IMG/VR virus record: IMGVR_UViG_3300032240_000545
Coordinates: 1-26,145 of that record
Length of the DNA: 26,145 bases
Strand: one strand, 5' to 3'
Source: a virus
The position numbers and the translations under genes were made by a program. Below the pieces are notes generated by a model. The model was given only the letters and a program-made list of their open reading frames with translations, searched no databases and was not told the DNA's origin. Shown here piece after piece: positions 2,840 to 24,861 of this stretch (positions within the stretch are counted from its first letter, which is position 1; every line of letters starts with the position of its first letter).

Positions 2840-2857
2840 CAACCGATAGGGGAGCGA
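2840..2857 (+). repeat. Start-associated-like repeat, copy 1
   Basis: CAACCGATAGGGGAGCGA lies exactly 80 bp before a near-identical copy at 2920. No start codon with a usable frame follows this copy, so it is not simply a ribosome binding site. The core CCGATAGG resembles the start-associated sequence GGGATAGGAGCCC described in cluster K mycobacteriophages. Confidence 0.45.
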
Positions 2858-2873
2858 CCCGACACGTTAACGC

Positions 2874-2902
2874 TTGACTTTCGTTAAGGCGTAGGCAATT
2901 AT
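2874..2902 (+). promoter_or_regulatory. Candidate promoter for WhiB-containing gene set
   Basis: TTGACT (2874-2879) and AATTAT (2897-2902) are separated by 17 bp, in the only gene-free gap between the tiny-gene cluster and the set containing WhiB. It sits between the two CAACCGATAGG repeats. A start near 2909 would leave a 30-base leader ahead of the gene at 2939. Confidence 0.35.
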
Positions 2903-2919
2903 TCACCCAATCAAGCAAC

Positions 2920-2937
2920 CAACCGATAGGAGAACGA
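2920..2937 (+). repeat. Start-associated-like repeat, copy 2
   Basis: CAACCGATAGGAGAACGA shares its first 11 bases and 16 of 18 overall with the copy at 2840. Here AGGAGA also acts as the ribosome binding site for the ATG at 2939. A third related element, CCGATAGGGGGAGA, precedes the minus-strand gene that starts at 5985. Confidence 0.5.
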
Positions 2938-2938
2938 A

Positions 2939-3133
2939 ATGGCACGGAATCAAGGACGAATCGCCTACTTTGAGGCGAAGGCAGACTTACTTCAACGCAA
3001 CGCCGAACACTTTGCACGCGAAGGTCGCAACGATGACGCGATCAAAGCTGGGATAGACATGGTGCGAGCCATGAGCGAAGCGACACGCCTACGCATAGGC
3101 TTAGGCAATAACCAACCCAACGACGCAGCATAA
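2939..3133 (+). CDS. Small helical hypothetical protein
   Basis: A 64-residue protein with a strong ribosome binding site (AGGAGA, 6 bases upstream). It is almost entirely helical and charge-balanced: IAYFEAKADLLQRNAEHFAREGRNDDAIKAGIDMVRAMSEATR looks like a two-helix hairpin with a turn at EGRND, similar in feel to a single TPR-like unit. First gene after a candidate promoter. Unknown function; no metal or catalytic residues. Confidence 0.75.
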   Translation: MARNQGRIAYFEAKADLLQRNAEHFAREGRNDDAIKAGIDMVRAMSEATRLRIGLGNNQPNDAA

Positions 3134-3147
3134 GGAAAGGAGAAAAG

Positions 3148-3309
3148 ATGACTCAATCATTTACTGAAAAGTTAATGCAACCAGCAATAGATCAAATACA
3201 GACCGCGTTACAAGTTGCATATCAAGCTGGCTACGATCAAGCACTGATAGACCTACAAAATCACGAACACCATATAAGCGAAATAATTGCAGAAGATATT
3301 GGAGAATAG
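3148..3309 (+). CDS. Small helical protein with AYQAGYDQA motif
   Basis: 53 residues, preceded by AAGGAAAGGAG 5 bases before the ATG, one of the best ribosome binding sites in the window. It is acidic and helical; AYQAGYDQALIDLQN belongs to the recurring glycine/aromatic helical pattern of several short proteins here. The stop overlaps the GTG start of WhiB (TAGTG), so WhiB synthesis is probably coupled to this gene. Unknown function. Confidence 0.7.
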   Translation: MTQSFTEKLMQPAIDQIQTALQVAYQAGYDQALIDLQNHEHHISEIIAEDIGE

Positions 3310-3758
3310 TGCAACGCAATCTTAATCCCGATGACCAACCGCTGTGCGCGGACCCAGCCTATGACCCAGAGATGTGGTTCCCTGAACCTAATTCCAAAGA
3401 GAATCCTCTGGGTCTACGCTACCAAAAGACAGCTATTGAGACGGCGGTTGAGGCAATGCAGATATGTGGCACTTGCCCATTACAGCAAGCCTGTATAGAG
3501 TACTCAATGGAATCCTTAGAGACCGTTCACTACGGTATCTTTGGTGGCACACTACCTATGGAAAGGCAACGAGCTGTGGGCGCAGGAGATGTATCCAACA
3601 CCCACTCATGGCAAGGCAAGATCAGACGAATGGCAGATGAGAAGGGCGTTATCGTTCCTTATATTGCCAAGAGAGAAAGGCCAAAGCTATTAGTATCATT
3701 ACAAGAAAGAGCCTCGTGGCAACAATCAGCCTCGCAGTCATTGGAGCAGGCATCGTAG
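3309..3758 (+). CDS. whiB: WhiB-family Fe-S transcription factor
   Basis: A 149-residue WhiB-like protein. The four cysteines C13, C53, C56 and C62 follow the family pattern C-Xn-C-x2-C-x5-C that holds a 4Fe-4S cluster, and YGIFGGTLP (75-83) is the G[VI]WGG-type turn with Trp replaced by Phe. A basic C-terminal part (KIRRMADEKG, KRERPK) would bind DNA. WhiB proteins occur only in actinobacteria and their phages; phage versions such as mycobacteriophage TM4 WhiB are known to interfere with host WhiB regulation and superinfection. GTG start in a TAGTG overlap. The C-terminus overlaps the next gene by 43 bases. Confidence 0.93.
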   Translation: MQRNLNPDDQPLCADPAYDPEMWFPEPNSKENPLGLRYQKTAIETAVEAMQICGTCPLQQACIEYSMESLETVHYGIFGGTLPMERQRAVGAGDVSNTHSWQGKIRRMADEKGVIVPYIAKRERPKLLVSLQERASWQQSASQSLEQAS

Positions 3759-4126
3759 TAGCCCCACAGGGGCCTTTACAGCCGTTTAAGGGGCATCACA
3801 AACCTTCCCCACCCCCGACAACGGCAGAACTTAAAGCCTATGCAAAAGCTAAATATGGCAAAGACGACATACAGTTTGAGGCACTTGATCTCCTACTGAC
3901 TATGGAATCTCACTGGAACTGGCGATCTACTGGCGCCAAGACCACAAACGGTAGGGCATACGGTATCCCGCAAGCTCTACCCGCCAGCAAGATGCGTGTC
4001 GCAGGTAAAGATTACTTGACTAACCCATACACCCAGATAAACTGGGCACTGATGTACCTCAAGAGCAGGTATCAAAATAACGCTATGTATGCGTTAAAGC
4101 ATGAACTACGAAAGGGCTGGTGGTAA
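3716..4126 (+). CDS. Lytic transglycosylase-like cell-wall enzyme
   Basis: 136 residues: a short hydrophobic N-terminus (ATISLAVIGAGIVV), a Pro-rich linker (about 29-36), then an SLT-like domain. LLTMESHWNW contains the probable catalytic Glu64; NGRAYGIPQALP, NPYTQINWALMYLKSRY and the final GWW match the domain in secreted actinobacterial resuscitation-type transglycosylases, which cut peptidoglycan glycan strands. The start is GTG at 3716 inside WhiB. Its place next to WhiB, far from the lysis genes, suggests a role in host wall remodelling or entry rather than final lysis (inference). The hydrophobic start lacks the usual basic residues, so export is uncertain. Confidence 0.8.
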   Translation: MATISLAVIGAGIVVAPQGPLQPFKGHHKPSPPPTTAELKAYAKAKYGKDDIQFEALDLLLTMESHWNWRSTGAKTTNGRAYGIPQALPASKMRVAGKDYLTNPYTQINWALMYLKSRYQNNAMYALKHELRKGWW

Positions 4127-4959
4127 AAGTGCAACCGTTAGTACTGATGCACATATTGGCAAAGGACAAGGCAGCGATGTTACCCGCATGGCTGGAGCAA
4201 AACTTAGAGAAGATGGATTACCCAAAGGATCGGGTGATCCTGTACTTCAGAACTAACAATAACAATGACGATACGGCAAAGATCTTGCACGACTGGATAG
4301 ATGACCAGCGTACCTTGCGTGATCGTGATGATGATGACTTTGAGTATTACAACTGGCGCGACATAATCATTGAGGACAAAGATGTGGACGCGCAAGTGCA
4401 GAAGTATGGTGTGCATGAGTGGACACCTGAACGCTTTAAGGTACTTGGTGAGCTACGTGAGCAGGGTATTGAGGAAGCAATCTTCTGGGAAGCAGACTTC
4501 TACTACACGGTAGATGTAGATAACTTCACCATGTCGCACACGCTTAGCACATTAGTGAAGCACAACCAGCCAGTGGTAGCACCATTTCTGATGAGTGCCG
4601 ACCCAGAGCAACCTGCCTACAGCAACTACCACAACATAGCCACGAAGAATGGGTACTTCCTAGATAACGAAGCCTACTACCGTATCCTTAATCGCCAGAT
4701 ACAAGGGCTCATTAAGTGCGATGTAGTCCACTGCACCTACCTCATTCGCAAGGATGTACTCAAGAGAGTTACCTACCAGGACGGCACGGATGACTACGAG
4801 TACGTGATCTTTAGCCGCGAGCTACGACGCTTAGGTATCCCGCAGTACCTAGACAACACGAAGGTCTACGGCTATCTATCCACACGTGAGAACGTAAAGG
4901 CATGCACGAACAAGATGGCAGAACTACGTAAAGAGTGGGTTAAGAGCCAGCTGAAGTGA
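4120..4959 (+). CDS. Putative GT-A glycosyltransferase
   Basis: 279 residues. The N-terminal half reads as a GT-A nucleotide-sugar fold: VLMHILAKDKAAMLPAWLEQNL, then ILYFRTNNNNDDTAKIL, then EEAIFWEADFYYTVDVDN with E-x-D at 124-126 and D132/D134 as candidate metal ligands. This layout resembles the ANP1 and collagen-galactosyltransferase-like families. The C-terminal half (CTYLIRKDVL, YEYVIFSRELRRLGIPQYLDN) fits acceptor binding and donor-site closure. Starts with GTG overlapping the previous stop by 7 bases; a second GTG at 4129 is possible. It may glycosylate host surface polymers or a virion protein; a second, unrelated glycosyltransferase lies at 22471. Confidence 0.75.
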   Translation: MVKVQPLVLMHILAKDKAAMLPAWLEQNLEKMDYPKDRVILYFRTNNNNDDTAKILHDWIDDQRTLRDRDDDDFEYYNWRDIIIEDKDVDAQVQKYGVHEWTPERFKVLGELREQGIEEAIFWEADFYYTVDVDNFTMSHTLSTLVKHNQPVVAPFLMSADPEQPAYSNYHNIATKNGYFLDNEAYYRILNRQIQGLIKCDVVHCTYLIRKDVLKRVTYQDGTDDYEYVIFSRELRRLGIPQYLDNTKVYGYLSTRENVKACTNKMAELRKEWVKSQLK

Positions 4960-5720: not shown

Positions 5721-5758
5721 TAGCCTGCTCCCTGTCCGTGAGGTTGAGCGGCAAGACA

Positions 5759-5786
5759 AAAGCCACCGCGTAAAAACGGTGGCTTT
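5759..5786. terminator. Bidirectional intrinsic terminator between convergent operons
   Basis: AAAGCCACCG pairs perfectly with CGGTGGCTTT around an 8-base loop. On the plus strand it runs into TTTATCTTTT; on the minus strand the stem is followed by TTTTGTC. It therefore can stop the rightward early operon and the leftward replication operon, which meet here. Confidence 0.85.
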
Positions 5787-5814
5787 ATCTTTTGCATCTT
5801 CCCCTAATGCAAAG

Positions 5815-5985
5815 CTATGGCGTATTGTTATAGAAGCCTGATGCGTTCCACTGGATAGCAGGTGAGTCATACTTGCGACCCATTGACTGCTGGCAACAGA
5901 CTGGATCTACAGCCTCGGCGTGGATGCTACGCTCCAACGTTTGAACACCACCACAGGTAGCGCAAAGGTAATCATACTGAGGCAT
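5815..5985 (-). CDS. FmdB-family zinc-ribbon protein
   Basis: 56 residues beginning MPQYDYLCATCG, the hallmark start of FmdB-type putative regulatory proteins (MPxYxYxCxxCG). C8/C11 and C30/C31 form the zinc-ribbon ligands; the second knuckle is CC rather than CxxC, slightly unusual. The C-terminus (SPAIQWNASGFYNNTP) matches the FmdB tail in which the knuckle is followed by a short Gly/Tyr-rich strand. The start is set by GATAGGGGGAGAG just upstream and overlaps the previous gene by 14 bases. Last gene of the leftward operon. The family is thought to act in gene regulation, though biochemical evidence is thin. Confidence 0.85.
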   Translation of the reverse strand: MPQYDYLCATCGGVQTLERSIHAEAVDPVCCQQSMGRKYDSPAIQWNASGFYNNTP

Positions 5986-6106
5986 GCTCTCCCCCTATCG
6001 GACATTTCTCTACACAGTTCCAAACTAATTCCATATAGGAACGATCTGCAATCTTACGGATCTCGGTATAGCAATCGGCATCGTGGATGGGTTCCTTCTT
6101 ACTCAT
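5972..6106 (-). CDS. Small hypothetical protein, 44 aa
   Basis: Begins in an ATGA overlap with the stop of the sigma-like gene and overlaps the FmdB gene by 14 bases. 44 residues: a helix containing C12 (DADCYTEIRKIADRSYMELVWNCVEKCPIGGEH) and a C-x3-C pair (C31, C35) plus His3-type ligands (H8, H41), so metal binding is possible. Its 3' end carries the strong ribosome binding site for the FmdB gene. Unknown function. Confidence 0.6.
   Translation of the reverse strand: MSKKEPIHDADCYTEIRKIADRSYMELVWNCVEKCPIGGEHASV
5988..6001 (-). promoter_or_regulatory. GATAGG-type ribosome binding element
   Basis: On the minus strand CCGATAGGGGGAGA ends two bases before the ATG at 5985. It shares CCGATAGG with the two plus-strand repeats at 2840 and 2920, so the same start-associated motif is used on both strands by different operons. 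Confidence 0.45.
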
Positions 6107-6735
6107 TCCTCACCCTTTCCAAATGGGTTATCCCCACCTAACGAGAAGTGCAAGCGGCGCAGAGCGCCAGTTACTTTGCGATGAGCGGTTGTATCTGAAC
6201 ACTGCAACAGCTCTGCCATCTCGGTAAAGTTATGGTTCTCATAATACTTCAACTGCAATACCAACTGATCTGATGGGTCTAACTTATGTACGGCACGGCG
6301 TACGTCAAAGAGCTGGATGATGTAGTTGCCACCCTCGGCAGGGTTACCGCCACCTGTTACAACTTCCCCATCATTAGCCGCACGAGTCTCAATGACTGGC
6401 GACCAGATCAACGGCAGCATATCCTCAAGCGTAGGGATGGAGTAGTAATGCTCATCTCGGATCTCATAGCCCAACTTCTGTGCTTTAGCACGGCGACAAT
6501 ACTTGTCCGCCTGGCGAGTGAGAGTCTTACCTAAATGCTTAACGCCAGACTTAAGATCTTCTGGCTTCTGATCGGGGTTAAGCCACTGCGTAATCTTGTC
6601 CTGCCTACGCACACACCAGAGCAATAGCTCCTGGCGTACGTCAGCCACGTCAAAGTATGGATGGTATTTACGATGGACAATGCGAGCCACTTGCGAGGCT
6701 ATGTCTACGACTTCCTCTGGGAGTTCGCTATTCAT
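6103..6735 (-). CDS. Sigma-70-like RNA polymerase sigma factor
   Basis: 210 residues. The N-terminal part (IASQVARIVHRKYHPYFDVADVRQELLLWCVRR) resembles sigma region 2, including the polymerase-binding helix with D-x2-Q-E. The C-terminal part (VHKLDPSDQLVLQLKYYENHNFTEMAELLQCSDTTAHRKVTGALRRL) is a region 4 helix-turn-helix that would read a -35 element. The 75-residue linker between them is long and contains a Gly-rich stretch (VVTGGGNPAEGGN). ATG at 6735 preferred over TTG at 6738. It could redirect transcription to phage late promoters. A DNA-binding protein that is only sigma-like is the alternative. Confidence 0.75.
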   Translation of the reverse strand: MNSELPEEVVDIASQVARIVHRKYHPYFDVADVRQELLLWCVRRQDKITQWLNPDQKPEDLKSGVKHLGKTLTRQADKYCRRAKAQKLGYEIRDEHYYSIPTLEDMLPLIWSPVIETRAANDGEVVTGGGNPAEGGNYIIQLFDVRRAVHKLDPSDQLVLQLKYYENHNFTEMAELLQCSDTTAHRKVTGALRRLHFSLGGDNPFGKGEE

Positions 6736-7189
6736 CAATCACCACTGGCAAGATGTAATCTGGGAAATCTATCGCCGCATTAAAGTGGACGTTAAAGTCA
6801 TGCTCGTTTGTATCGGCACGAGTGAGGCCAAAGATAGGGTCTAAGCACCGTAGAACGTGTGCAGGGATAAGCAATAGCGCATCGGTATAGCGGATGCAGA
6901 TACGGTTGAAAGCGTCTGGACGGTCCGTTGTAGGCTCGGTAAGCCATATCTGTTGGAGCTTCTGGTATGGGAACTTAACCTCTGAGTTGACTGGACGCTT
7001 CATCCACTTCACTTCAAGCCCACCGATGTAGTTAGCGTAGCCGTTGCCATGATTCTTGTTGACAAGAAAGTCTATGAAGTAGTACTTTGGTGTACCGTAG
7101 AGGTCCCAGGAGTATGTCTCGGATAGATAGTGAGCAACCTTCTGCTCACGAGTACCATCACCTAATACCTGGCGGATTGGTTCAACCAT
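6728..7189 (-). CDS. PD-(D/E)XK-like nuclease candidate
   Basis: 153 residues. KYYFIDFLVNK followed by GGLEVKWMKRP gives D40 and E59-x-K61, the spacing of a PD-(D/E)XK core, with K72 and Q79/Q80 further on as possible supporting residues. The rest (FNRICIRYTDALLLIPAHVLRCL) is predicted alpha/beta. The start at 7189 is in a TAATG overlap with the HNH gene and the end overlaps the sigma-like gene by 8 bases. The neighbourhood of nucleases and recombination proteins fits a DNA-processing enzyme. The family is highly divergent, so the call depends on the motif alone. Confidence 0.55.
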   Translation of the reverse strand: MVEPIRQVLGDGTREQKVAHYLSETYSWDLYGTPKYYFIDFLVNKNHGNGYANYIGGLEVKWMKRPVNSEVKFPYQKLQQIWLTEPTTDRPDAFNRICIRYTDALLLIPAHVLRCLDPIFGLTRADTNEHDFNVHFNAAIDFPDYILPVVIDE

Positions 7190-7485: not shown

Positions 7486-7631
7486 TAGGAAGCACTCTTG
7501 TCTCCGTTGAGGATTCGCAAGGCCCAATCAAGCCCAGCGTTAAATCCTTCCATCCAGTCAAAGTCTTTATGACCTACTGGAAGGGACGTCTTAGCCGACT
7601 CAATCTTCTCTTTAGCTTTATCAAGGTCCAT
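7485..7631 (-). CDS. Small helical protein, EGFNAG motif
   Basis: 48 residues between two TAATG overlaps. WMEGFNAGLDWALRILNG is the same glycine/aromatic helical pattern found in the 54-aa protein at 12286 (DEGYNAGFDAGVAYAKSV) and, more loosely, in three plus-strand proteins. The N-terminal half is a basic/acidic helix (LDKAKEKIESAK). No catalytic residues. Such little proteins are common between phage replication genes; function unknown. Confidence 0.65.
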   Translation of the reverse strand: MDLDKAKEKIESAKTSLPVGHKDFDWMEGFNAGLDWALRILNGDKSAS

Positions 7632-8008
7632 TACTTGGGCCACTTACCTCGTTCAATCATCAGGGCTATAACCGCATAGTTAGCCATATCCTTAAACGAA
7701 TCTTCAATAGGCTCGTGTTGAGGTGTGCGATTGTTCTTATACAGATTCTTAAGACGTTCAAACTTATCGCCAATGCGCACCATAAGGCCGTTAATAGGAC
7801 CGCCAAAGGCATTGTTAATATTACCAGGGCCGTAGTCAGCTTGTTTCGTGATAAGGAGATTGCCGATCTCATCCATTATTTCCCAGACGTTGGCCGCGAA
7901 GTCGGTATCTGAACGAGTAGCTGGTTTGTTGTTTTGTCTAGGGATATAACTTTCAGCCCAATTGATTGAATCAACTTGATCGCCAATTCCATGTCCTCGC
8001 TCATTCAT
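7631..8008 (-). CDS. DUF1599-like (Nmad1-type) nucleotide-modification-associated protein
   Basis: 125 residues from the ATG at 8008, chosen because GGGGGAG lies 6 bases upstream; a longer in-frame start at 8059 lies inside the neighbouring gene. The C-terminal 75 residues match DUF1599 as I know it: KQADYGPGNINNAFGGPINGLMVRIGDKFERLKNLY then EPIEDSFKDMANYAVIALM, with conserved Lys, Asp, Arg, Lys and Glu/Asp positions. This all-helical family has been named nucleotide modification associated domain 1 and resembles MazG/dUTPase-type NTP pyrophosphatase folds. It may process nucleotides for modified phage DNA, but no modification enzyme is visible here. Confidence 0.75.
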   Translation of the reverse strand: MNERGHGIGDQVDSINWAESYIPRQNNKPATRSDTDFAANVWEIMDEIGNLLITKQADYGPGNINNAFGGPINGLMVRIGDKFERLKNLYKNNRTPQHEPIEDSFKDMANYAVIALMIERGKWPK

Positions 8009-8186
8009 TATTCTCCCCCTGTATTTGTCCATTGAATATCCAATTCTTTGAATCTTCATCTAGTACGTACGTGTATAAAATAACTTGCCCGCTTGCCAAG
8101 CGATGTTCCATCTCAATAACATCCAACACCCACAACATATCTGGTACCCGTGCGCCATCTTTAGGACCGCCAATAAACTCAGGCAT
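8001..8186 (-). CDS. Small hypothetical protein, beta-rich
   Basis: 61 residues. The GGPKDGARVPDML start, followed by strands with HRLASGQVILYTYVLDE and WIFNGQ, matches a short beta-rich phage protein type I have seen beginning with F-I-G-G-P-x-D-G, usually of unknown function. It overlaps the metallopeptidase-like gene and the DUF1599-like gene by 8 bases each. Nothing suggests catalysis. Confidence 0.7.
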   Translation of the reverse strand: MPEFIGGPKDGARVPDMLWVLDVIEMEHRLASGQVILYTYVLDEDSKNWIFNGQIQGENNE

Positions 8187-8508
8187 CGTCCGCTTCGTCT
8201 ACTATCTCCCTTAAGATATAAGCAACAATCTCTGGGTTCTGTGCCAGTGTATCTACTACATGATAGCCAACGATGTCGCATACTTCCTCAACATCAAAAC
8301 GCTTGCGCATAGATAGCGGAGTTTCGTTAATAATCGCATGGGTAATTTCATGGCCTAGCACGCGAATCAGTTTATCTTCTGGCATGTTAGGGCGCAACCA
8401 GATGGTATTGCTATCTGCATCTGTCATGCCATAAGAATTTTCGTCCATGTGGTCATAGCGAATCTTATACTTCTGACCAAAGATTCTGATGGATACTGGA
8501 CGTTTCAC
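8179..8508 (-). CDS. Small HExxH metallopeptidase-like protein
   Basis: 109 residues. LIRVLGHEITHAIINET carries H53-E54-x2-H57, the zinc-binding and catalytic motif of gluzincin-type metallopeptidases; a downstream Glu (FDVEEVCDIVGYHVVD, about residues 72-75) could be the third ligand. Before it come strands (SIRIFGQKYKIRYD, GMTDADSNTIWLRP) as in the ImmA/IrrE and SprT-like groups. IrrE/ImmA-type peptidases cut repressors; this one is shorter and has no repressor beside it. GTG start in a GTGA overlap with the primase TOPRIM gene. Confidence 0.8.
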   Translation of the reverse strand: MKRPVSIRIFGQKYKIRYDHMDENSYGMTDADSNTIWLRPNMPEDKLIRVLGHEITHAIINETPLSMRKRFDVEEVCDIVGYHVVDTLAQNPEIVAYILREIVDEADDA

Positions 8509-9140
8509 GCTGCTAGTCTATCACGGAACCAGGTTGGCCCTGAGTCTAAGAAGGTGTCGTTGACATCTCTGTTGGCTGGCAACCCAACCACCATAGCTTT
8601 GTCTAAGTCTTCTTTAATCCTTTTCGCCAGTTCCTGTCCTGGATTTCTTCCATCTTCTTTAACATCGTTGTCTGCGAAAATGAGAATACGGTCATACGAT
8701 TCAAAGAGCTTAGGGAACCACGGTTTCCATTGGCTGACTCCAGCAACTCCAACAGCTGGTATCTGAACCATGCCCGATAATACAATGGTGTCAATCTCCC
8801 CCTCACAAATGGCAATAGTGTTGCTATGCTTGTGAAGATCATTAACATTAAACAGCCCGATTTTCTGACCCGTAGGCCAAATGTATTTTGGTGTCCCATC
8901 ATCTAATCTCCTAAACTTGATACCCACCACACCAGCGGGAGTAATATAAGGAATGGAAAGCATACCTGTAGCATGTTCATGGCCAGCACTAGGCTCAACG
9001 ACGCTTCCAAGAAGGAATGTACTTGCCACTTCCTTGGTTAGTCCCCGTCCCGCGAGGTAAGAGGCTGCCTGTGGTGTGAGATTGCTGGAGTATCTTTCGG
9101 CTGCTTCCGTTAGTGATTGTCTCTGCTTTACGTTTAGCAT
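8505..9140 (-). CDS. DNA primase, TOPRIM part
   Basis: 211 residues. IAICEGEIDTIVLSG contains the TOPRIM Glu113, PAVGVAGVSQW follows, and ILIFADND supplies D157-x-D159, the metal-binding pair of DnaG-type primases. Upstream, LTPQAASYLAGRGLTKEVA is the helical segment that in single-chain primases directly follows the zinc finger. The zinc finger is on a separate, overlapping gene (8995-9357) in another frame. The ATG at 9140 lacks a good ribosome binding site. It lays RNA primers for lagging-strand synthesis, presumably with the nearby helicase-like protein. Confidence 0.88.
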   Translation of the reverse strand: MLNVKQRQSLTEAAERYSSNLTPQAASYLAGRGLTKEVASTFLLGSVVEPSAGHEHATGMLSIPYITPAGVVGIKFRRLDDGTPKYIWPTGQKIGLFNVNDLHKHSNTIAICEGEIDTIVLSGMVQIPAVGVAGVSQWKPWFPKLFESYDRILIFADNDVKEDGRNPGQELAKRIKEDLDKAMVVGLPANRDVNDTFLDSGPTWFRDRLAA

Positions 9141-9357
9141 CTTTGAAATCTAGCCCTTCTTTTGCTTGCACTAATGTATATACATCTCCGAGTACCTGGC
9201 AGACGAGGCAATTGTATGCCTGGTTGTCTAGGTTGTAGGCGGCACTTGCCATTGCATCATCGTGAATGACGCACTTGCAAGGCACCCAGCCGTGCTTATC
9301 TATGACGTTAACCCCGTAGTGCTCTAGCACCAGGGCAATATCAGGCTTTGAGATCAC
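8995..9357 (-). CDS. DNA primase, CHC2 zinc-finger part
   Basis: 120 residues from a GTG that abuts the preceding stop. C29-x2-H32 and C50-x2-C53 form the CHC2 zinc finger used by DnaG primases for template recognition, followed by GDVYTLVQAKEGLDFKDAKRKAE, the usual helix after it. The last 48 residues (low complexity Ser/Gly/Arg) read over the start of the TOPRIM gene and look like non-native sequence: the normal continuation is found in the other frame. So the pair is either two separate subunits, or one primase expressed by a +1 frame change. Confidence 0.85.
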   Translation of the reverse strand: MISKPDIALVLEHYGVNVIDKHGWVPCKCVIHDDAMASAAYNLDNQAYNCLVCQVLGDVYTLVQAKEGLDFKDAKRKAETITNGSSRKILQQSHTTGSLLPRGTGTNQGSGKYIPSWKRR

Positions 9358-9633: not shown

Positions 9634-9989
9634 TCTATTGCTCCCGATTGTGCTAACCATTGGTTAAGATCCTGGACTACCCAGCTCTGATCTAACCCCG
9701 CCATGCGACGCTTGACTATGACATAGGCTGGTGGAACTGCATCTAAGCCACGAGCTTTGGCGTAGTTGGCTGCTTCAACACAAGCCTCACGCCAGAACTG
9801 TGGCAGATCCATCTTCACCGTAGCCTTTAATTCAAAGATGTAGGGCTGACCAGCGACCATGCAAACAATGTCGCCTTCATCGTCTTTGCCAGCCAACCTA
9901 AGCCGCTCAGCCGCTACACCCTTGCCACGAAGCCATTTGAGTATGCCCGTCTCAAAGGCTGAACCTTTACGTTTTCCGTATGTACTCAT
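9630..9989 (-). CDS. Holliday junction resolvase (Hjc-like, PD-(D/E)XK)
   Basis: 119 residues. KGSAFETGILKWLRGKG gives the early Glu13, then AGKDDEGDIV (Asp40) and YIFELKAT (Glu53-x-Lys55) complete the E...D...E-x-K active site of Hjc-type resolvases, which nick four-way junctions symmetrically. The basic N-terminus (GKRKGS) and LRLAGKDD are also typical. It starts in an ATGA overlap with the helicase-like gene. In this operon it would resolve recombination and replication intermediates, alongside the endonuclease VII-like protein. Confidence 0.85.
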   Translation of the reverse strand: MSTYGKRKGSAFETGILKWLRGKGVAAERLRLAGKDDEGDIVCMVAGQPYIFELKATVKMDLPQFWREACVEAANYAKARGLDAVPPAYVIVKRRMAGLDQSWVVQDLNQWLAQSGAIE

Positions 9990-10813
9990 CTAATCCCACT
10001 CCAAGTTTGTGCAACAAAGGCTGATGATCTATCACCATAGATAGACATTCGGCTTGCATCTGCCCACAGTGTAACGAACTTGTCGCCAGTAGCACTGTGT
10101 TTTCCAAAGCGATTCTTCACAACTGCCACTCGGAACTCTCCTGAATATGGCACAAGTGCCACGGTCAAAATCATTTCTGGTAGCTGTGCAATCTTGCCTT
10201 GAATAGCCTTACGGCTTGGGGGAATGTCAGGCTTTCCTTCTGCCTCACTGGTGTGGTGAAGTAGTAGGACTCCTGCATCTGTCTCACGTGCAATATGGTG
10301 CATAGCCTTGGCAATCTCACGAAGGCCAGACCATTCATCATTGTGCATTGAGACTACGTTCATTGCGTTATCCACAATAATCATGTGTGGATATTCTCCA
10401 TATGCTTCTCCGTAGGCGCGGATAGCAAGATCAATCTCATCAAGTGTTGGGCTAGGGGCGAAGTCAAACTGCAAGTGGGAAACACTCAATAGTTCAGTTT
10501 CGTAAAACTCTTTGCCTGCACCAGTTGTAAATGCTTCTTCTACTGTGGCGACTTGGTGACCAGTAATCATTGCTGCGGCACGGATTGCAGTGGTATAAGA
10601 ATCGGTATCTGCGGATATGTAAAGCGTAGGCACTTGCATCTTCACCGCCATCCAAAGGGCTATGAGTGATTTACCAGCGTTAGGTGCGCCAGCTATCATT
10701 GTCAACTGTCCTCTGCGAAACCTAATCCCCTCGCTTTGCAACGAAGGGAAAAGGTCTGGCAGTAACTGATGATCGTTAGTGCTTTTCGCTGCCGCTTGGG
10801 TAAGTGACAGCAC
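9986..10813 (-). CDS. RecA/DnaB-type ATPase, probable replicative helicase
   Basis: 275 residues. GAPNAGKS (42-49) is the Walker A loop, ADTDSYTTAIRAA (69-81) the following RecA-fold element, MIIVDN (143-148) the Walker B strand with Asp148 metal ligand, and VLLLHHTSE (182-190) a sensor-like motif; R-x-AIQGKIAQ and VVKNRFGKH complete a DnaB/RadA core. There is no N-terminal primase-binding domain, so it is shorter than DnaB (about 450), a known form in small actinophages. GTG start, no clear ribosome binding site. It would unwind DNA as a hexamer with the primase encoded downstream. Confidence 0.85.
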   Translation of the reverse strand: MLSLTQAAAKSTNDHQLLPDLFPSLQSEGIRFRRGQLTMIAGAPNAGKSLIALWMAVKMQVPTLYISADTDSYTTAIRAAAMITGHQVATVEEAFTTGAGKEFYETELLSVSHLQFDFAPSPTLDEIDLAIRAYGEAYGEYPHMIIVDNAMNVVSMHNDEWSGLREIAKAMHHIARETDAGVLLLHHTSEAEGKPDIPPSRKAIQGKIAQLPEMILTVALVPYSGEFRVAVVKNRFGKHSATGDKFVTLWADASRMSIYGDRSSAFVAQTWSGIR

Positions 10814-10818
10814 CTAGG

Positions 10819-11220
10819 TTATCTAACGAACTTAGGCTCGCACTGGTCTGGAGTTCCCTTAGCGGATGGGCAGAACCAGCCCTTCCATGCTTTCGGAGCT
10901 CCTGGCTTTGACTCACGCCATACAAGTTCACCATGCTTACAGTGTCCATCAGGAGTCTGTACTGGTGGTGCGTAGGCTGCTGGTGCAGCTGGTGGTGCAT
11001 ATACAGGTGCAGCGACTGGCGCTGCGCCAAGTCCTGCTGCTAATGCACGGACTGCTCCAGCACTAGCAAGTGATGCTGATACTGAGTTGATGAGAGCTGA
11101 ACTATCTTGGATGGTAGCAAGACCAGTCTCAAGTTCTGCTGATGTAGCTGCATAGATATTGACGAGTGTTCCGTCAGCCAACTTAAAGTTGACTTGGAAC
11201 TTTGTTCCTTCTGTTGCCAT
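10819..11220 (-). CDS. Zinc-ribbon protein with Pro/Ala linker
   Basis: 133 residues in three parts: an N-terminal beta/helix segment (FQVNFKLADGTLVNIYA, then a helix to about 60), a Pro/Ala-rich linker (66-90) and a C-terminal zinc knuckle C94-x-H96 ... C117 ... C127 within KPGAPKAWKGWFCPSAKGTPDQC. The C-terminal block is one I recognise in actinophage proteins located beside Cas4-type nuclease and helicase genes; a single-stranded DNA-binding or recombination mediator role is likely but not shown. A good AAGGAG site precedes the ATG. Confidence 0.8.
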   Translation of the reverse strand: MATEGTKFQVNFKLADGTLVNIYAATSAELETGLATIQDSSALINSVSASLASAGAVRALAAGLGAAPVAAPVYAPPAAPAAYAPPVQTPDGHCKHGELVWRESKPGAPKAWKGWFCPSAKGTPDQCEPKFVR

Positions 11221-11231
11221 TGTATTTCTCC

Positions 11232-11891
11232 TTATTTTATTTCTGCTAGTGGGTCATATATTGTTGAAAGTTGTCCGCCTACTGCGTAACAATAGTCCTT
11301 TACGCCGCAAGTAGAGCATGCCATTCCGATGTTCGGAAGGTAGATATTAGCATCAATTCCCCGAACAAACTGGGCAAACAGTTCGGTCATTACGGGAATA
11401 GTCCAGCGATCTAGGCCGCTTAGTTCCTTAAACTCAGCTTTGCGGGCATCGTAGAAGTAACCTTTGGTTGGCCTAACACCAAACTGCATCTCCATACAGC
11501 AGGCGTAAACACCCAATTGCATAGACGAGTTGGGCATATAGCTGCCAGTCTTGAAGTCAATGACTGCAAGTTCACCTGATGGTTCAACCACAATCGCATC
11601 AGCAAATGCCTTGATAGGCACATCACCAAAGTTGAGAATCCATCCGAGTTCTGCTGCTGGCACACCTTCAGGTGTTACCCACAACTCAAACTTAGAACCT
11701 TCCCAAGCGGTAATGAAATTAAAGAACATCTCTTTACCATTGCGATCCCACCAAGTTTTGTTTTCTTTATCTGGGTTCTCTTTGGTAGCACGGCCAGCTA
11801 CACGCCAGTCAGTTGGGTTAGAACCAGACTTGGCTTCTACCTCAGCAATGGCTTCAAGGAATGTTTCATCCCAAATCTTATCCCACGTCAT
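11232..11891 (-). CDS. Cas4/RecB-like Fe-S nuclease, C-terminal part (split gene)
   Basis: 219 residues. AFADAIVV (Asp98), LAVIDFKTG (Asp112-x-Lys114) and QLGVYA (Gln125) form the PD-(D/E)XK catalytic core, and C192-x2-C195-x5-C201 is the C-terminal triad of Fe-S ligands in Cas4, AddB and RecB-type exonucleases. The fourth ligand normally lies near the N-terminus, before a motif that is missing here but is encoded by the separate gene at 12450. ATG at 11891, 9 bases after AGG, preferred over TTG at 11900. Likely a 5' exonuclease in recombination. Three small genes sit between the two parts. Confidence 0.85.
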   Translation of the reverse strand: MTWDKIWDETFLEAIAEVEAKSGSNPTDWRVAGRATKENPDKENKTWWDRNGKEMFFNFITAWEGSKFELWVTPEGVPAAELGWILNFGDVPIKAFADAIVVEPSGELAVIDFKTGSYMPNSSMQLGVYACCMEMQFGVRPTKGYFYDARKAEFKELSGLDRWTIPVMTELFAQFVRGIDANIYLPNIGMACSTCGVKDYCYAVGGQLSTIYDPLAEIK

Positions 11892-12078
11892 TGGCTTCAA
11901 CCTTTCCTGCTACTAATTCCTGGGCTTGCTTTAATCCAGTGATGATGTCAGGGTTTGTTTCCTTCTCAATCAGGTTCTCAATCCTAGCACCTAAGTTCTT
12001 GCGCATGATAACTTCAGCTTCCACGAAGGATTGCATAAAGGCATCACGGCTAATGATCTTTGCGTGTTTACGTCCCAT
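11878..12078 (-). CDS. Small hypothetical protein within split nuclease
   Basis: 66 residues with AAGGA 8 bases before the ATG. Basic N-terminus (GRKHAKIISRDAF) then two helices (FVEAEVIMRKNLGARIENLIEKE and DIITGLKQAQELVAGKV). It resembles no named family I can place. The end overlaps the nuclease C-terminal gene by 14 bases, so its translation probably feeds the nuclease part directly. One of three genes separating the nuclease halves; whether it aids assembly is open. Confidence 0.7.
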   Translation of the reverse strand: MGRKHAKIISRDAFMQSFVEAEVIMRKNLGARIENLIEKETNPDIITGLKQAQELVAGKVEANDVG

Positions 12079-12080
12079 TG

Positions 12081-12296
12081 TTAATCCTTATCTATCGCTG
12101 TAACAACTGTGGCAAGACTATCGCAGAGGACACATCTTGCATCCGTTGCGTACATTCCAATTTCAAAGTCATCGTCAAACTTAACTTTGACGTTCCACCA
12201 TTCTGATCCGCAGGGACATACTCGTATTGGACCGAGCGAACGATAGTCCGCTTCTGCTCCAAGGGTGGGTTTAATGTTTGCAAGTTCATCCCCCAT
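12081..12296 (-). CDS. Small zinc-ribbon protein within split nuclease
   Basis: 71 residues, one zinc ribbon: RVCPCGSEWWNVKVKFDDDF then ARCVLCDSLATVV, that is CPC at 27-29 and CVLC at 55-58. The spacing and the strand between them match a nucleic-acid-binding ribbon. The ATG at 12296 is preferred; a longer frame from 12434 is only the opposite reading of its neighbour. It overlaps the preceding small gene by 11 bases. Unknown role. Confidence 0.7.
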   Translation of the reverse strand: MGDELANIKPTLGAEADYRSLGPIRVCPCGSEWWNVKVKFDDDFEIGMYATDARCVLCDSLATVVTAIDKD

Positions 12297-12450
12297 TGTC
12301 CTGGCTTTCCATAACGGATTTTGCGTAAGCAACACCAGCATCAAAGCCAGCGTTGTATCCTTCGTCAAAAGATTTTCCTTTTTCGTAAGTAACACCTGCC
12401 GCTTTAAGGCGCTTGCGATTTTCTGGTAAACCAATCTTAGTGTCAGCCAT
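12286..12450 (-). CDS. Small helical protein, EGYNAG motif, within split nuclease
   Basis: 54 residues starting in a TAATG overlap with the stop of the nuclease N-terminal gene. The N-terminal half is basic (LPENRKRLKAAG), the rest SFDEGYNAGFDAGVAYAKSVMES, closely similar to the 48-aa protein at 7485 (EGFNAGLDWALRIL). It may form a helical hairpin. Tight coupling to the nuclease N-terminal part is the only functional hint. Confidence 0.65.
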   Translation of the reverse strand: MADTKIGLPENRKRLKAAGVTYEKGKSFDEGYNAGFDAGVAYAKSVMESQDNGG

Positions 12451-12662
12451 TAGAACGGGAACACTTCAGTTTTGTCTAACTTTTCTTGATGCTTAGCAAG
12501 CAAGTATTTTTCTGCTGCTGAGTGAAATGCACTACCGCCAACGAAATACCATGCTGGCTCTGATGGTGCTTGCAAGTTGCGCTCTAGCTGAAATGCTTTG
12601 CCACAGCGTAACCATGATGTAAATGCAGAGAATGATCTATGTTGTATTTGTATTTCTTTCAT
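12450..12662 (-). CDS. Cas4/RecB-like Fe-S nuclease, N-terminal part (split gene)
   Basis: 70 residues with the opening of a RecB-type PD-(D/E)XK nuclease: SFSAFTSWLRCGKAFQLE (Cys20 in the place of the first Fe-S ligand), a short spacer, then YFVGGSAFHSAAEKYLLA, the helix with Gly-Gly-x-A-x-H that precedes the catalytic core. The core itself is in the gene at 11232-11891. The chain stops after VFPF, and three small genes intervene. The ATG at 12662 has no ribosome binding site, and the -10 element ends 6 bases before it, so translation is probably leaderless. Confidence 0.8.
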   Translation of the reverse strand: MKEIQIQHRSFSAFTSWLRCGKAFQLERNLQAPSEPAWYFVGGSAFHSAAEKYLLAKHQEKLDKTEVFPF

Positions 12663-12855: not shown

Positions 12856-12891
12856 AAAAAAATAACCCCCACCGCCGAAGCGATGAGGGTT
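12856..12891 (-). terminator. Strong intrinsic terminator of the late operon
   Basis: On the minus strand a 12-bp stem (12891-12880 with 12875-12864, two G-U pairs) closes a UUCG tetraloop and is followed by seven T residues (12862-12856). It lies directly after the holin-candidate gene and separates late genes from the replication operon. Confidence 0.9.
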
Positions 12892-12906
12892 AAGTTAAAG
12901 CGTTTG

Positions 12907-22059: not shown

Positions 22060-22502
22060 TAGACAACTCCCGCTTCTGTGAATGACTTTGCAGTCTGTTT
22101 GGTTATCTTGCTTGTCGCTGGCATTACGTCAGCGTTATATGCCTTGCCTAGTGTTTCGCTAGCCTGATGGGCTTCACGAATAGCCTGAGTTGATGTACCC
22201 GCAGGTTGAATACCCTGCGATCTTGCATCGCGGTAGGACTGAAGCTCTTTATCCCATTTCTTCTGGGACATAGAATCGGCTCGTCCTGCATCGCCTGTGT
22301 TGAGTTCTAGTGTGCTGAGTTTGCAAGCAAAGCACCCATCAATATAAGCAGTATGCTCAAAATGATCCGATGGTGTCTCCGCATAAACGAATGGGGTGGC
22401 ACTAACTTCGCCACATTCTGTGCAATCGTATTCAACTGGGACAGAGTTATATTTCTCATCTATTCCCCATTTACTTACTCTGCTTGTATGTTGATGTTGC
22501 AT
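22059..22502 (-). CDS. Zinc-knuckle virion-region protein
   Basis: 147 residues; the start at 22502 follows GAGGAAG by 6 bases and is preferred over an in-frame start at 22517. CTECGEVSATPFVYA ... FACKLSTLELN gives CxxC and CxxC (about 27-30 and 57-60), one zinc ribbon, followed by a long charged helix (KKWDKELQSYRDARS, STQAIREAHQASETLGKAYNADV). This resembles a head or scaffolding-linked protein; the preceding GT2 gene overlaps it by 32 bases. Confidence 0.65.
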   Translation of the reverse strand: MQHQHTSRVSKWGIDEKYNSVPVEYDCTECGEVSATPFVYAETPSDHFEHTAYIDGCFACKLSTLELNTGDAGRADSMSQKKWDKELQSYRDARSQGIQPAGTSTQAIREAHQASETLGKAYNADVMPATSKITKQTAKSFTEAGVV

Positions 22503-23547
22503 TTTTAACTTCCTCAAAAAAAACTAAGTTGCGCTGGATACGGTCATTTTCTGGACCGTTAGCCTTTATCGCTTCGCGAGTAAAGGTTATTGCTTCATCA
22601 ATATGCTTGAGATTGTATGCAGCGATTCCTGCCAAGTCGTAGGCTTTCCAATCCCATACTGCTGATTCGTAGCAGTAGTGGTTGGATCTAGGAGCTTCCA
22701 AAGCGTTGAGAGCAGCATCTAAGCACCGCTGCCATTCTTGCTTTCGGTAAGCATCCATTGCAACACCGAACTGCGGCTCACCTTGCACGGGAAGAATTGT
22801 TGCGCCCTTGTCATACCACACACGAGCATCTTCTTCTTTGCCAAGTTGATGCGCTGCTTCTCCTGCCCATCGGCAGACAGCAGCACTTTCAACATCCCAG
22901 CCCTCGTTCTCTAACTTGCGTTCAGCTGCTTTGATTACATCTTCCCATTTGGAGTAGAAGAAGTATTCTCTGCACATATAAGTCCACATACGTGGATCTT
23001 GGGGAAACTCTTTGACTGCTAGTTCAAGCAGTTCTATGTATTGACCGCGGGACTTTGTATTGTCTGGCAGATGCTCAATAACAGCATTGCGTATATCGCA
23101 GTCAATTGTTTGGTGCTTGCCGTAAAAGACATTTACCTCATGGCATGGATACTTCCATGTCCAATTCCATCTGGAGTGAAGTCTATCTCGCTCCCATTTG
23201 TTAGCATCAGTCTTCATGCTAATCCAGCCTAGGTCAGCACCTGGCTTCCACTTCTTGCGTACCTTCTTAAAGAAGTCTGGCTCTGGTACTTCGTCTAAGT
23301 CTAAGATCAAACATACATCAGCATCATCTGGCACTAACGCCAATGCTGCATTACGAGCCATATCAAACCTAAATGGATTGACGTGGATCTGATGAACTGT
23401 TACTCCCAGCTCTTTAAGTTTTTCTTGTGTACCGTCCGTGCTACCAGTATCAGCAACGATACGATAATCAGCACCTTCAGTAGCTTTAGCCCAGCGTTCC
23501 GCATGAAGAATCTCATTCTTTGATATTGCATACACAGCAATCTTCAT
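22471..23547 (-). CDS. GT2-family glycosyltransferase with TPR-like tail
   Basis: 358 residues. IAVYAISKNEILHAERWAKA then IVADTGSTDGTQEKLKELG is the start of a family 2 glycosyltransferase; LILDLDEVPEPDFF holds the D83-x-D85 metal site. After about 175 the chain turns into helical repeats (YIELLELAVKEFPQDPRMWTYMCREYFFYSKWEDVIKAAERKLEN ... AICRWAGEAAHQLGKEEDARVWYDKG) of TPR type, as in SunS-like and WaaE-type enzymes. The ATG at 23547 has no good ribosome binding site. Next to a collagen-like fibre, it may glycosylate that fibre (inference). Confidence 0.85.
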   Translation of the reverse strand: MKIAVYAISKNEILHAERWAKATEGADYRIVADTGSTDGTQEKLKELGVTVHQIHVNPFRFDMARNAALALVPDDADVCLILDLDEVPEPDFFKKVRKKWKPGADLGWISMKTDANKWERDRLHSRWNWTWKYPCHEVNVFYGKHQTIDCDIRNAVIEHLPDNTKSRGQYIELLELAVKEFPQDPRMWTYMCREYFFYSKWEDVIKAAERKLENEGWDVESAAVCRWAGEAAHQLGKEEDARVWYDKGATILPVQGEPQFGVAMDAYRKQEWQRCLDAALNALEAPRSNHYCYESAVWDWKAYDLAGIAAYNLKHIDEAITFTREAIKANGPENDRIQRNLVFFEEVKNATSTYKQSK

Positions 23548-23559
23548 GGTATAAGCGTA

Positions 23560-24861
23560 TCACATGCCACCAAGCATTAGTATGTCATAAAGGTTTGCTG
23601 CGCCTGTTGCACCTGTGCTACCCGTTGACCCTGTTGTTCCCGTATTACCTGTAACGCCAGTCGGTCCTGTCGGGCCAGTAGGCCCTGTCGTTCCAGTCGC
23701 GCCAACGCTGCCAGTAGCGCCTGTTGCGCCCGTGTTTCCAACTGCCCCATTCGTTCCAGCAGAACCAGTAGGCCCTGTTGCACCCGTGGCTCCATTGGTT
23801 CCGTTAGTTCCAGCTGCGCCAGTAGGTCCTGTAGATCCGTTGGTTCCTGCGGTTCCTGTGGCACCCGTTGCTCCTGTCGCTCCAGTATTTCCAGTTAATC
23901 CAGTTGAGCCAGTATTACCTACTGCTCCCGTATTTCCTGTATTACCTTGCGATCCAGTATTACCCGTTGCTCCAGTTGGTCCAACAGCACCAGTGTTGCC
24001 AGTAGCACCAGTGGGACCAGTATTACCAATGGCACCAGTATTTCCTGTAGCACCTGTCGCACCGATAGCCCCCGTATTTCCTACTGCGCCCGTAGGCCCA
24101 GTAATTCCTGTTGCACCCGTATTGCCCTGGGCGCCCGTATTACCAATGGCTCCTGTATTACCAGTATTACCAGTGTTACCTGTTAATCCAGTATTACCTG
24201 TAGGGCCTGTTGGACCTGTGCTTCCGATAGCTCCTGTCGGACCAGTATTTCCTTGGGCTCCAGTGTTTCCTGTTGCTCCTGTAACTCCTTGTGCACCAGT
24301 CGCTCCTATCGCTCCTGTAGGGCCTGTAATGCCCTGTGAGCCTGTATTACCAGTTGCCCCAGTATTGCCTGTGGCACCAGTGTTTCCAATGGCTCCTGTG
24401 GCGCCTACAGCGCCTGTATTGCCCTGAGCACCAGTTACTCCAGTTGACCCTGTGGGTCCAGTAGACCCTGTGCTTCCAGCAGAACCTGTTGAGCCATTAG
24501 CACCCGTGGGTCCTGTCGCTCCGACGTTACCCGTGGATCCTGTAATACCCTGGCTTCCAGTAGATCCAGTTTGGCCAGTGCTACCCGTAGCACCTGCTGC
24601 ACCCGTTGATCCAGTTGCTCCAGCAGAGCCAGTGGCTCCTGTATTTCCTGCCGAACCTGTTGCTCCAGTTCCGCCTTGTCCGCCTGTATTTCCAGTGGCT
24701 CCAGTTGCACCTGTGTTACCTACCAATCCTGGATAACCTGTTGGGCCTTGTGGGCCGATAGGTCCTAATTCTACAATGTTGAGTTGAGTTGTAGAGATGT
24801 CATAAACATTGGTTGTGACTGGAATTTCTACAACTGAGATGCTATCTGGTGTAACTGTCAT
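23560..24861 (-). CDS. Collagen-like fibre protein
   Basis: 433 residues: a short N-terminal beta segment ([31 protein letters not shown]), then more than 120 Gly-x-y triplets rich in GAT, GNT, GPT and GST, then a short cap ([14 protein letters not shown]). Collagen-like triplets form stiff trimeric rods; in phages they make fibre shafts. Proline in position y is less common than usual, with Thr and Asn dominant, so glycosylation of Thr could help stability. The ATG is in a TAATG overlap. Adjacent GT2 enzyme may be the modifying partner. Confidence 0.9.
23600..24765 (-). repeat. Collagen-coding tandem repeat tract
   Basis: A 9-base period built from GGN-NCN-NNN codons over about 1.15 kb (the Gly-x-y triplets). 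Codons vary at the third position, so the tract is repetitive in protein rather than a perfect DNA repeat; it still makes a long opposite-strand open frame (23615-24427) as a by-product. Repeat number may differ between related phages by slippage or recombination. Confidence 0.85.

Follow-up and report, generated by a model that had tools for sequence, protein, structure and literature searches.

Gene Organization of the Locus

The window, that is, the whole 26,145-nucleotide stretch of viral DNA analyzed here (IMG/VR record IMGVR_UViG_3300032240_000545), carries on its minus strand two genes predicted to encode the N-terminal and C-terminal parts of a single RecB/Cas4-like nuclease (hereafter, the N-part and the C-part), with three short genes, g2, g3, and g4, lying between them (Table 1). 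The coordinates, lengths, order, and strand of these five genes were all re-found as given in the first-pass annotation. The stop codon of the N gene overlaps the ATG of the next gene (TAATG), and the C gene starts within the final codons of the 66-aa gene. A consensus scan listed a terminator-like site upstream of the N gene and none on the same strand between the N and C genes.

Table 1. Features of the split nuclease locus (positions in the window)
Feature	Positions	Strand	Length	Remarks
Terminator-like stem-loop with T run	12863-12892	-		upstream of the N gene; consensus scan only
N-part (putative N-subunit of split exonuclease)	12450-12662	-	70 aa	Cys20, His47, Glu51
Cys20 codon of the N-part	12605-12603	-
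His47 codon of the N-part	12524-12522	-
SSB C-terminus-like tail of the N-part	12453-12470	-		TEVFPF; PF ending common in the clade
Inserted gene g2	12286-12450	-	54 aa	no match in the related loci searched
Inserted gene g3	12081-12296	-	71 aa	zinc-ribbon-like, CxCG...CxxC
Inserted gene g4	11878-12078	-	66 aa	helical; no family match
C-part (putative C-subunit of split exonuclease)	11232-11891	-	219 aa from ATG	D98, D112-x-K114, Q125-x3-Y129, C192/C195/C201
Downstream neighbor	10819-11220	-		weakly L5/D29 gp49-like
DnaB/RecA-like helicase, same module	9986-10813	-		phrog_243, 8.4e-73

According to family matches, the split nuclease shares its module with a helicase, a Holliday junction resolvase, and a primase. 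The gene order around the helicase is the same in phages with a single-gene nuclease, and a small gene similar to the downstream neighbor adjoins the 3' side of the nuclease in ct2KA10 (locus L081, positions 5723-6106). The DNA primase is encoded by two overlapping genes of the minus strand, at positions 8995-9357 (phrog_360) and 8505-9140 (Toprim/phrog_849), as in PA6 gp31/gp32. Elsewhere on the same strand, the window encodes a protein with the DUF1599 nucleotide modification-associated domain (positions 7631-8059) and a collagen-like protein of 433 aa with G-x-T-type triplets (positions 23560-24861), opposite to which there are long spurious open reading frames (ORFs). The window also encodes a WhiB-like regulator (positions 3309-3758, plus strand), a sigma-70-like factor (positions 6103-6738, minus strand), and a glycosyltransferase (positions 22471-23547, minus strand). 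The same set has been reported for LanE43AprE7 and LanE43AprF5, cultured phages that infect “Candidatus Planktophila” (PMC10202952), and suggests an actinobacterial host, possibly a member of Nanopelagicales.

Family Membership and the Divided Active Site

In profile searches, the N-part aligned with positions 3-51 and the C-part with positions 69-246 of the 247-position Pfam domain PF12705, with the C-part of the window scoring above and the N-part slightly below the Pfam cut-off; this domain was matched at an E value of ≤0.1 by 22 of 25 homologs of the N-part. The N-part also matched phrog_69 (6.5e-10), and the C-part matched phrog_1870 (3.2e-34). In an alignment with six single-gene phage exonucleases (267 to 318 aa), the two parts cover the family in order. 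Such comparison with nuclease profiles had been suggested in the first-pass annotation, and by these matches the two parts are complementary stretches of a RecB/Cas4-like phage exonuclease (PF12705/phrog_1870/phrog_69). Although members of PF12705/phrog_1870 typically consist of one polypeptide, two genes were found in every relative seen; this two-gene state is a structural variant of the family rather than a sign of failed homology. The match to the CRISPR Cas4 model TIGR00372 reached 22 bits, compared with its curated cut-off of 65, and the neighborhood of the split nuclease is a replication module, not the cas1/cas2 adjacency expected of Cas4. Searches detected no relatives in bacterial or archaeal genomes and no nucleotide similarity to phage records.

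All motifs of the PD-(D/E)XK nucleases are present across the two halves: His47 is in the N-part, whereas D98, D112-x-K114, and Q125-x3-Y129 are in the C-part; all of these residues are invariant. His47 and Glu51, conserved residues of the family, belong to motif I of the N-part (GGSAFHSAAE), so the earlier statement that the catalytic set is confined to the C-terminal part was wrong. A check of positions bore out the distribution of the four Cys residues of the Fe-S module that had been noted earlier, one of them (Cys20) in the N-part and three (C192-x2-C195-x5-C201) in the C-part. Because Cys20 and motif I reside in the N-part and the rest in the C-part, both the catalytic site and the Fe-S ligands, as assigned by homology, are split across the two chains. 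The Cys/His/Glu motif of the N-part and the three-Cys motif of the C-part were found in 216 of 216 loci. The strict DxK-QxxxY pattern was seen in 207 of these 216; in those of the nine exceptions that were inspected, FAD is replaced by YAD, and the catalytic residue is retained.

Conservation of the Split in Related Phages

A search of viral contigs with the C-part identified 80 loci, and a search with the N-part identified more. A second clade (the ct2KA10 clade), ∼35% identical, emerged from a search with the C-part of the closest relative in GenBank and comprises 80 loci, including those of the two cultured phages, LanE43AprE7 and LanE43AprF5 (GenBank accession numbers OX376640 and OX376641, respectively). 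All loci that show both sides (144 window-type and 80 second-clade loci) are split at the same place; these 224 loci come from many assemblies but are not independent, as some are duplicates of a single contig and many others are nearly identical. Removal of identical N/C pairs left 78 pairs in the window clade and 50 in the second clade. The two parts always occur together: C genes with at least 1,300 nt of upstream sequence are accompanied by an N gene in 121 of 121 and 63 of 63 cases, and N genes with at least 1,600 nt of downstream sequence are accompanied by a C gene in 134 of 134.

An intact PF12705 gene was not found in 12 long relatives (contigs of 36.8 to 48.6 kb, completeness unknown), which contained only pieces of this domain; in three of them, the C-part alone was matched. 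A full-length gene in close relatives, together with an assembly error, had been named earlier as the finding that would argue against a genuine split, and it was absent, with the halves being separate in 224 of 224 loci and in both cultured phages. These comparisons show an old split that has been kept in over 200 freshwater phage contigs related to the window, and the best explanation is that the fission predates the divergence of the two phage clades. In the tree, all split forms fall together, apart from the single-gene row of phage PA6, whose long branch makes its placement unsure; a single fission event is possible, though not proven by this tree.

Genes Between the Two Halves

In the window clade, the interval between the N and C genes spans 365 to 749 nt and contains g3 and g4, often with one or two other small genes. 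The conservation of the inserted genes in relatives, raised as a question in the first-pass annotation, held in part: the 71-aa and 66-aa genes are conserved in the clade, whereas the 54-aa g2 was unmatched in the loci searched. The CxCG..CxxC motif of g3 is found in 73 of its 76 homologs located between N and C, and g4 was present there in the window-clade loci searched; in Pfam- and PHROG-type profile searches, neither g3 (above the cut-off) nor g4 had a family match.

In most loci of the second clade, the end of the N gene and the start of the C gene share up to 20 nt, with C in the +1 frame. The exceptions are L189, L217, and L223, in which 956, 297, and 321 nt, respectively, separate the two halves and hold genes that show no relationship to those found in the window; the junction therefore appears to accept insertions repeatedly. 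One inserted gene is similar across these three loci (L189, positions 2854-4615; L217, positions 3507-4603; L223, positions 3480-4600). Because the second clade usually has no inserted genes or has different ones, the inserted genes are best regarded as operon passengers that are not part of the enzyme and would have arrived after the fission.

No match to an intron or another family of Rfam was detected, the N-C interval lacked inverted repeats and showed minor direct repeats only, and profile searches found no extra domain (intein) on either part; thus, neither a split intein nor an intron-interrupted gene is indicated by Rfam, repeats, or domains. The overlap sequences of the second clade vary and have no common slip site.

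Selection, Correlated Distances, and Predicted Structure

The N and C genes are under equal purifying selection, with median pairwise dN/dS values of 0.158 and 0.159, respectively, as against 0.22 for g3 and 0.24 for g4. The correlation of protein distances between N and C (0.79) is higher than that for any other gene pair of the interval, even though g3 is located nearer to N. The possibility that the N gene is spurious was rejected on the basis of its dN/dS value and of the synonymous codon changes at its 3' end (see below). It had been proposed that the two products must assemble or else that the nuclease has changed its function; this proposal is supported, and selection and residue conservation favor assembly over decay or a changed function.

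The fold was modeled with AlphaFold2 for the single-chain homolog from Rhodococcus phage Hiro, with N- and C-part sequences from split loci added as alignment rows (pLDDT 90.3, pTM 0.87). In this model, the split maps to the loop of residues 55 to 60, between the helix of residues 38 to 54, which carries motif I, and the helix of residues 61 to 82, at which the C-part starts, which would place the break in a surface loop that joins two helices. The nearest solved folds are those of AdnA, ACE1, Dna2, AddB, and Cas4. When the C-part of the window was modeled alone, its core was predicted confidently, and the Cys-containing segment of residues 186 to 219 had pLDDT values below 50. This low confidence may reflect a cluster module that needs the N-part, but a shallow alignment could also cause it.

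The SSB-Like Tail of the N-Part

Pro-Phe is the C-terminal dipeptide of the N-part in most of the window clade (41 of the 50 distinct N-part ends and 60 of the 78 distinct N/C pairs). The tip follows the pattern [D/E]-x(1-2)-P-F and is preceded by a hydrophilic linker that varies in length and sequence; Asp or Glu is found at positions -3 to -5 in all 30 distinct 8-residue PF tails. Pro is encoded by CCA, CCG, or CCT and Phe by either TTC or TTT, and this synonymous variation indicates selection on the protein. Among 2,230 distinct ORF ends in these loci, 40 encode a terminal PF, and 39 of these 40 belong to the N gene.

A chain end of this kind, in which a variable hydrophilic linker leads to one or more acidic residues and a final x-P-F, resembles the C-terminal tip of the SSB proteins. 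The tip of the Escherichia coli SSB is MDFDDDIPF (PMC7913777), and the Mycobacterium tuberculosis SSB ends in DDEPPF, the terminal Phe being needed to activate ClpX (PMC7847540); the N-part ends in TDEPPF in locus L037 and in TEVFPF in the window. Unlike in SSB, the tail is attached to half a nuclease that has no OB fold, and the SSBs compared are those of E. coli and M. tuberculosis. The N-part itself has only nuclease homology and lacks the SSB OB-fold domain PF00436, which was not found in 12 related contigs either.

The PF tail is absent in the second clade and in two subclades of the window clade, all of which retain the active-site residues, so the tail would be an addition dispensable for the basic enzyme. 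Within the window clade, its distribution on the tree requires three changes, consistent with a single gain and two losses. The tail probably recruits the nuclease to SSB partner proteins of the host or the phage, as judged from its similarity to the SSB tips. A further suggestion, to which we give somewhat less than an even chance, is that the fission became a regulatory device, with an SSB-mimicking tail that would compete with the host SSB for partners in replication and recombination and bring the nuclease to single-stranded DNA (ssDNA) in phages in which no SSB gene was found.

Proposed Two-Subunit Enzyme and Alternative Explanations

The likely interpretation, in our opinion, is that these genes encode a two-subunit RecB/Cas4-like exonuclease whose small subunit carries an SSB-like recruitment tail; its assembly, the cluster, the exonuclease activity, and the binding by the tail are what we infer from the comparisons above, and the two-chain exonuclease part is strongly implied by conservation. 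The N-subunit (the helices through motif I and one Cys) and the C-subunit (D, D-x-K, Q, and three Cys residues) would be separate translation products of one operon that bind each other noncovalently, and the full PD-(D/E)XK site and the set of four Fe-S Cys ligands would be complete only with both chains. The fission would have created a new C-terminus midway through the fold, and in the window clade this end could have turned into the variable linker with its acidic-x-P-F tip. The resulting nuclease would work with the neighboring helicase, Holliday junction resolvase, and primase.

A self-sufficient C-part, acting as a nuclease or in some other function, with the N-part being an independent protein in which the old domain serves another purpose (e.g., as an SSB tail decoy or regulator), would agree with the confidently predicted fold of the isolated C core and with the new tail gained by the N-part. 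This possibility is quite unlikely, given that His47, Glu51, and Cys20 of the N-part are invariant along with the three Cys residues of the C-part, that the two always co-occur, and that their distances correlate best. The PF tip, lying as it does at the new chain end, might instead dock onto the C-subunit and complete the fold rather than copy SSB; this too is unlikely, if a shade less so, as the second clade and the two subclades without the tip keep all active-site residues, and as the length of the linker varies while the last residues and the acidic character are kept, just as in SSB tails.

The overlaps of up to 20 nt in the ct2KA10 clade, with C in the +1 frame, might suggest that a single full-length product persists through programmed frameshifting, ribosome bypass, RNA splicing, or protein trans-splicing. 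Such a product is highly improbable: overlaps that vary without a common slip site, the lack of Rfam introns, an interval without inverted repeats, and N- and C-parts in which all but the short tails is homologous to nucleases, with no room for an intein, all speak against it. In the window clade, where 365 to 749 nt and other genes separate the halves, a single polypeptide made by frameshifting is impossible. The window is a single metagenomic contig, which by itself might point to an assembly error or a decaying pseudogene, but the probability of either is negligible in view of 224 loci from many assemblies, two cultured phage genomes, and strong purifying selection; an assembly error is excluded by those loci and the OX376640 and OX376641 genomes.

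Comparison with Known Systems and Significance

The two-subunit arrangement proposed here has its closest counterparts in the single-gene exonucleases of actinobacteriophages, such as Hiro gp56, NothingSpecial gp69, Rahalelujah gp76, PA6 gp37, Thermobifida phage P318 orf15, and Ibantik gp53. These have the same motifs in the same order, and several of them are found in a similar neighborhood with a DnaB-like helicase and a primase; however, each is encoded by one gene of 267 to 318 aa, whereas the enzyme described here comes from two genes, without a covalent link and with an SSB-like tail on the small one. LanE43AprE7 and LanE43AprF5 share with the window the fission point and the retention of both halves but differ in having a 17-nt gene overlap, no inserted genes, no PF tail, and ∼35% identity in the C-part; the main text of the paper that reported their isolation does not mention the exonuclease (PMC10202952). 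AdnA (Protein Data Bank entries 6PPR and 7SJR), the Argonaute-associated Cas4-like ACE1 (9IAB and 9IAC), Dna2, AddB, and Cas4, which are the nearest folds and profile hits of the single-chain homolog, have their nuclease domains in one chain according to the match descriptions and mostly function in helicases or in CRISPR or Argonaute systems. The two-gene DNA primase of these phages (and of PA6, gp31 and gp32) is likewise a replication enzyme made from two genes, but its parts are separate domains, of the zinc-binding type and Toprim, whereas in the nuclease a single domain has been cut.

A phylogenomic study of Cas4 described family members of mycobacteriophage and Propionibacterium phage origin, and the word “split” does not occur in it (PMC5704561). 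In the open-access literature, the coverage of which is incomplete, no papers were found on a split exonuclease of the same kind or on a nuclease with an SSB tail. The single-gene members are well known, and the fission and the SSB-like tail are new as far as could be found.

In the annotation of these abundant freshwater phages, only the C-half is named an exonuclease, and the N-half, with the motif I His and the fourth Cys, is left as an unknown protein of 60 to 76 aa. Expression of the annotated C gene by itself would therefore probably yield an incomplete enzyme. A stable fission inside one catalytic domain, with the Cys ligands of an Fe-S cluster expected to come from two chains, is unusual, and tests in culture are feasible, as LanE43AprE7 and LanE43AprF5 carry the split and have been isolated with a host. 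If the SSB-like tail is real, a phage enzyme would be borrowing the main ssDNA recruitment signal of its host.
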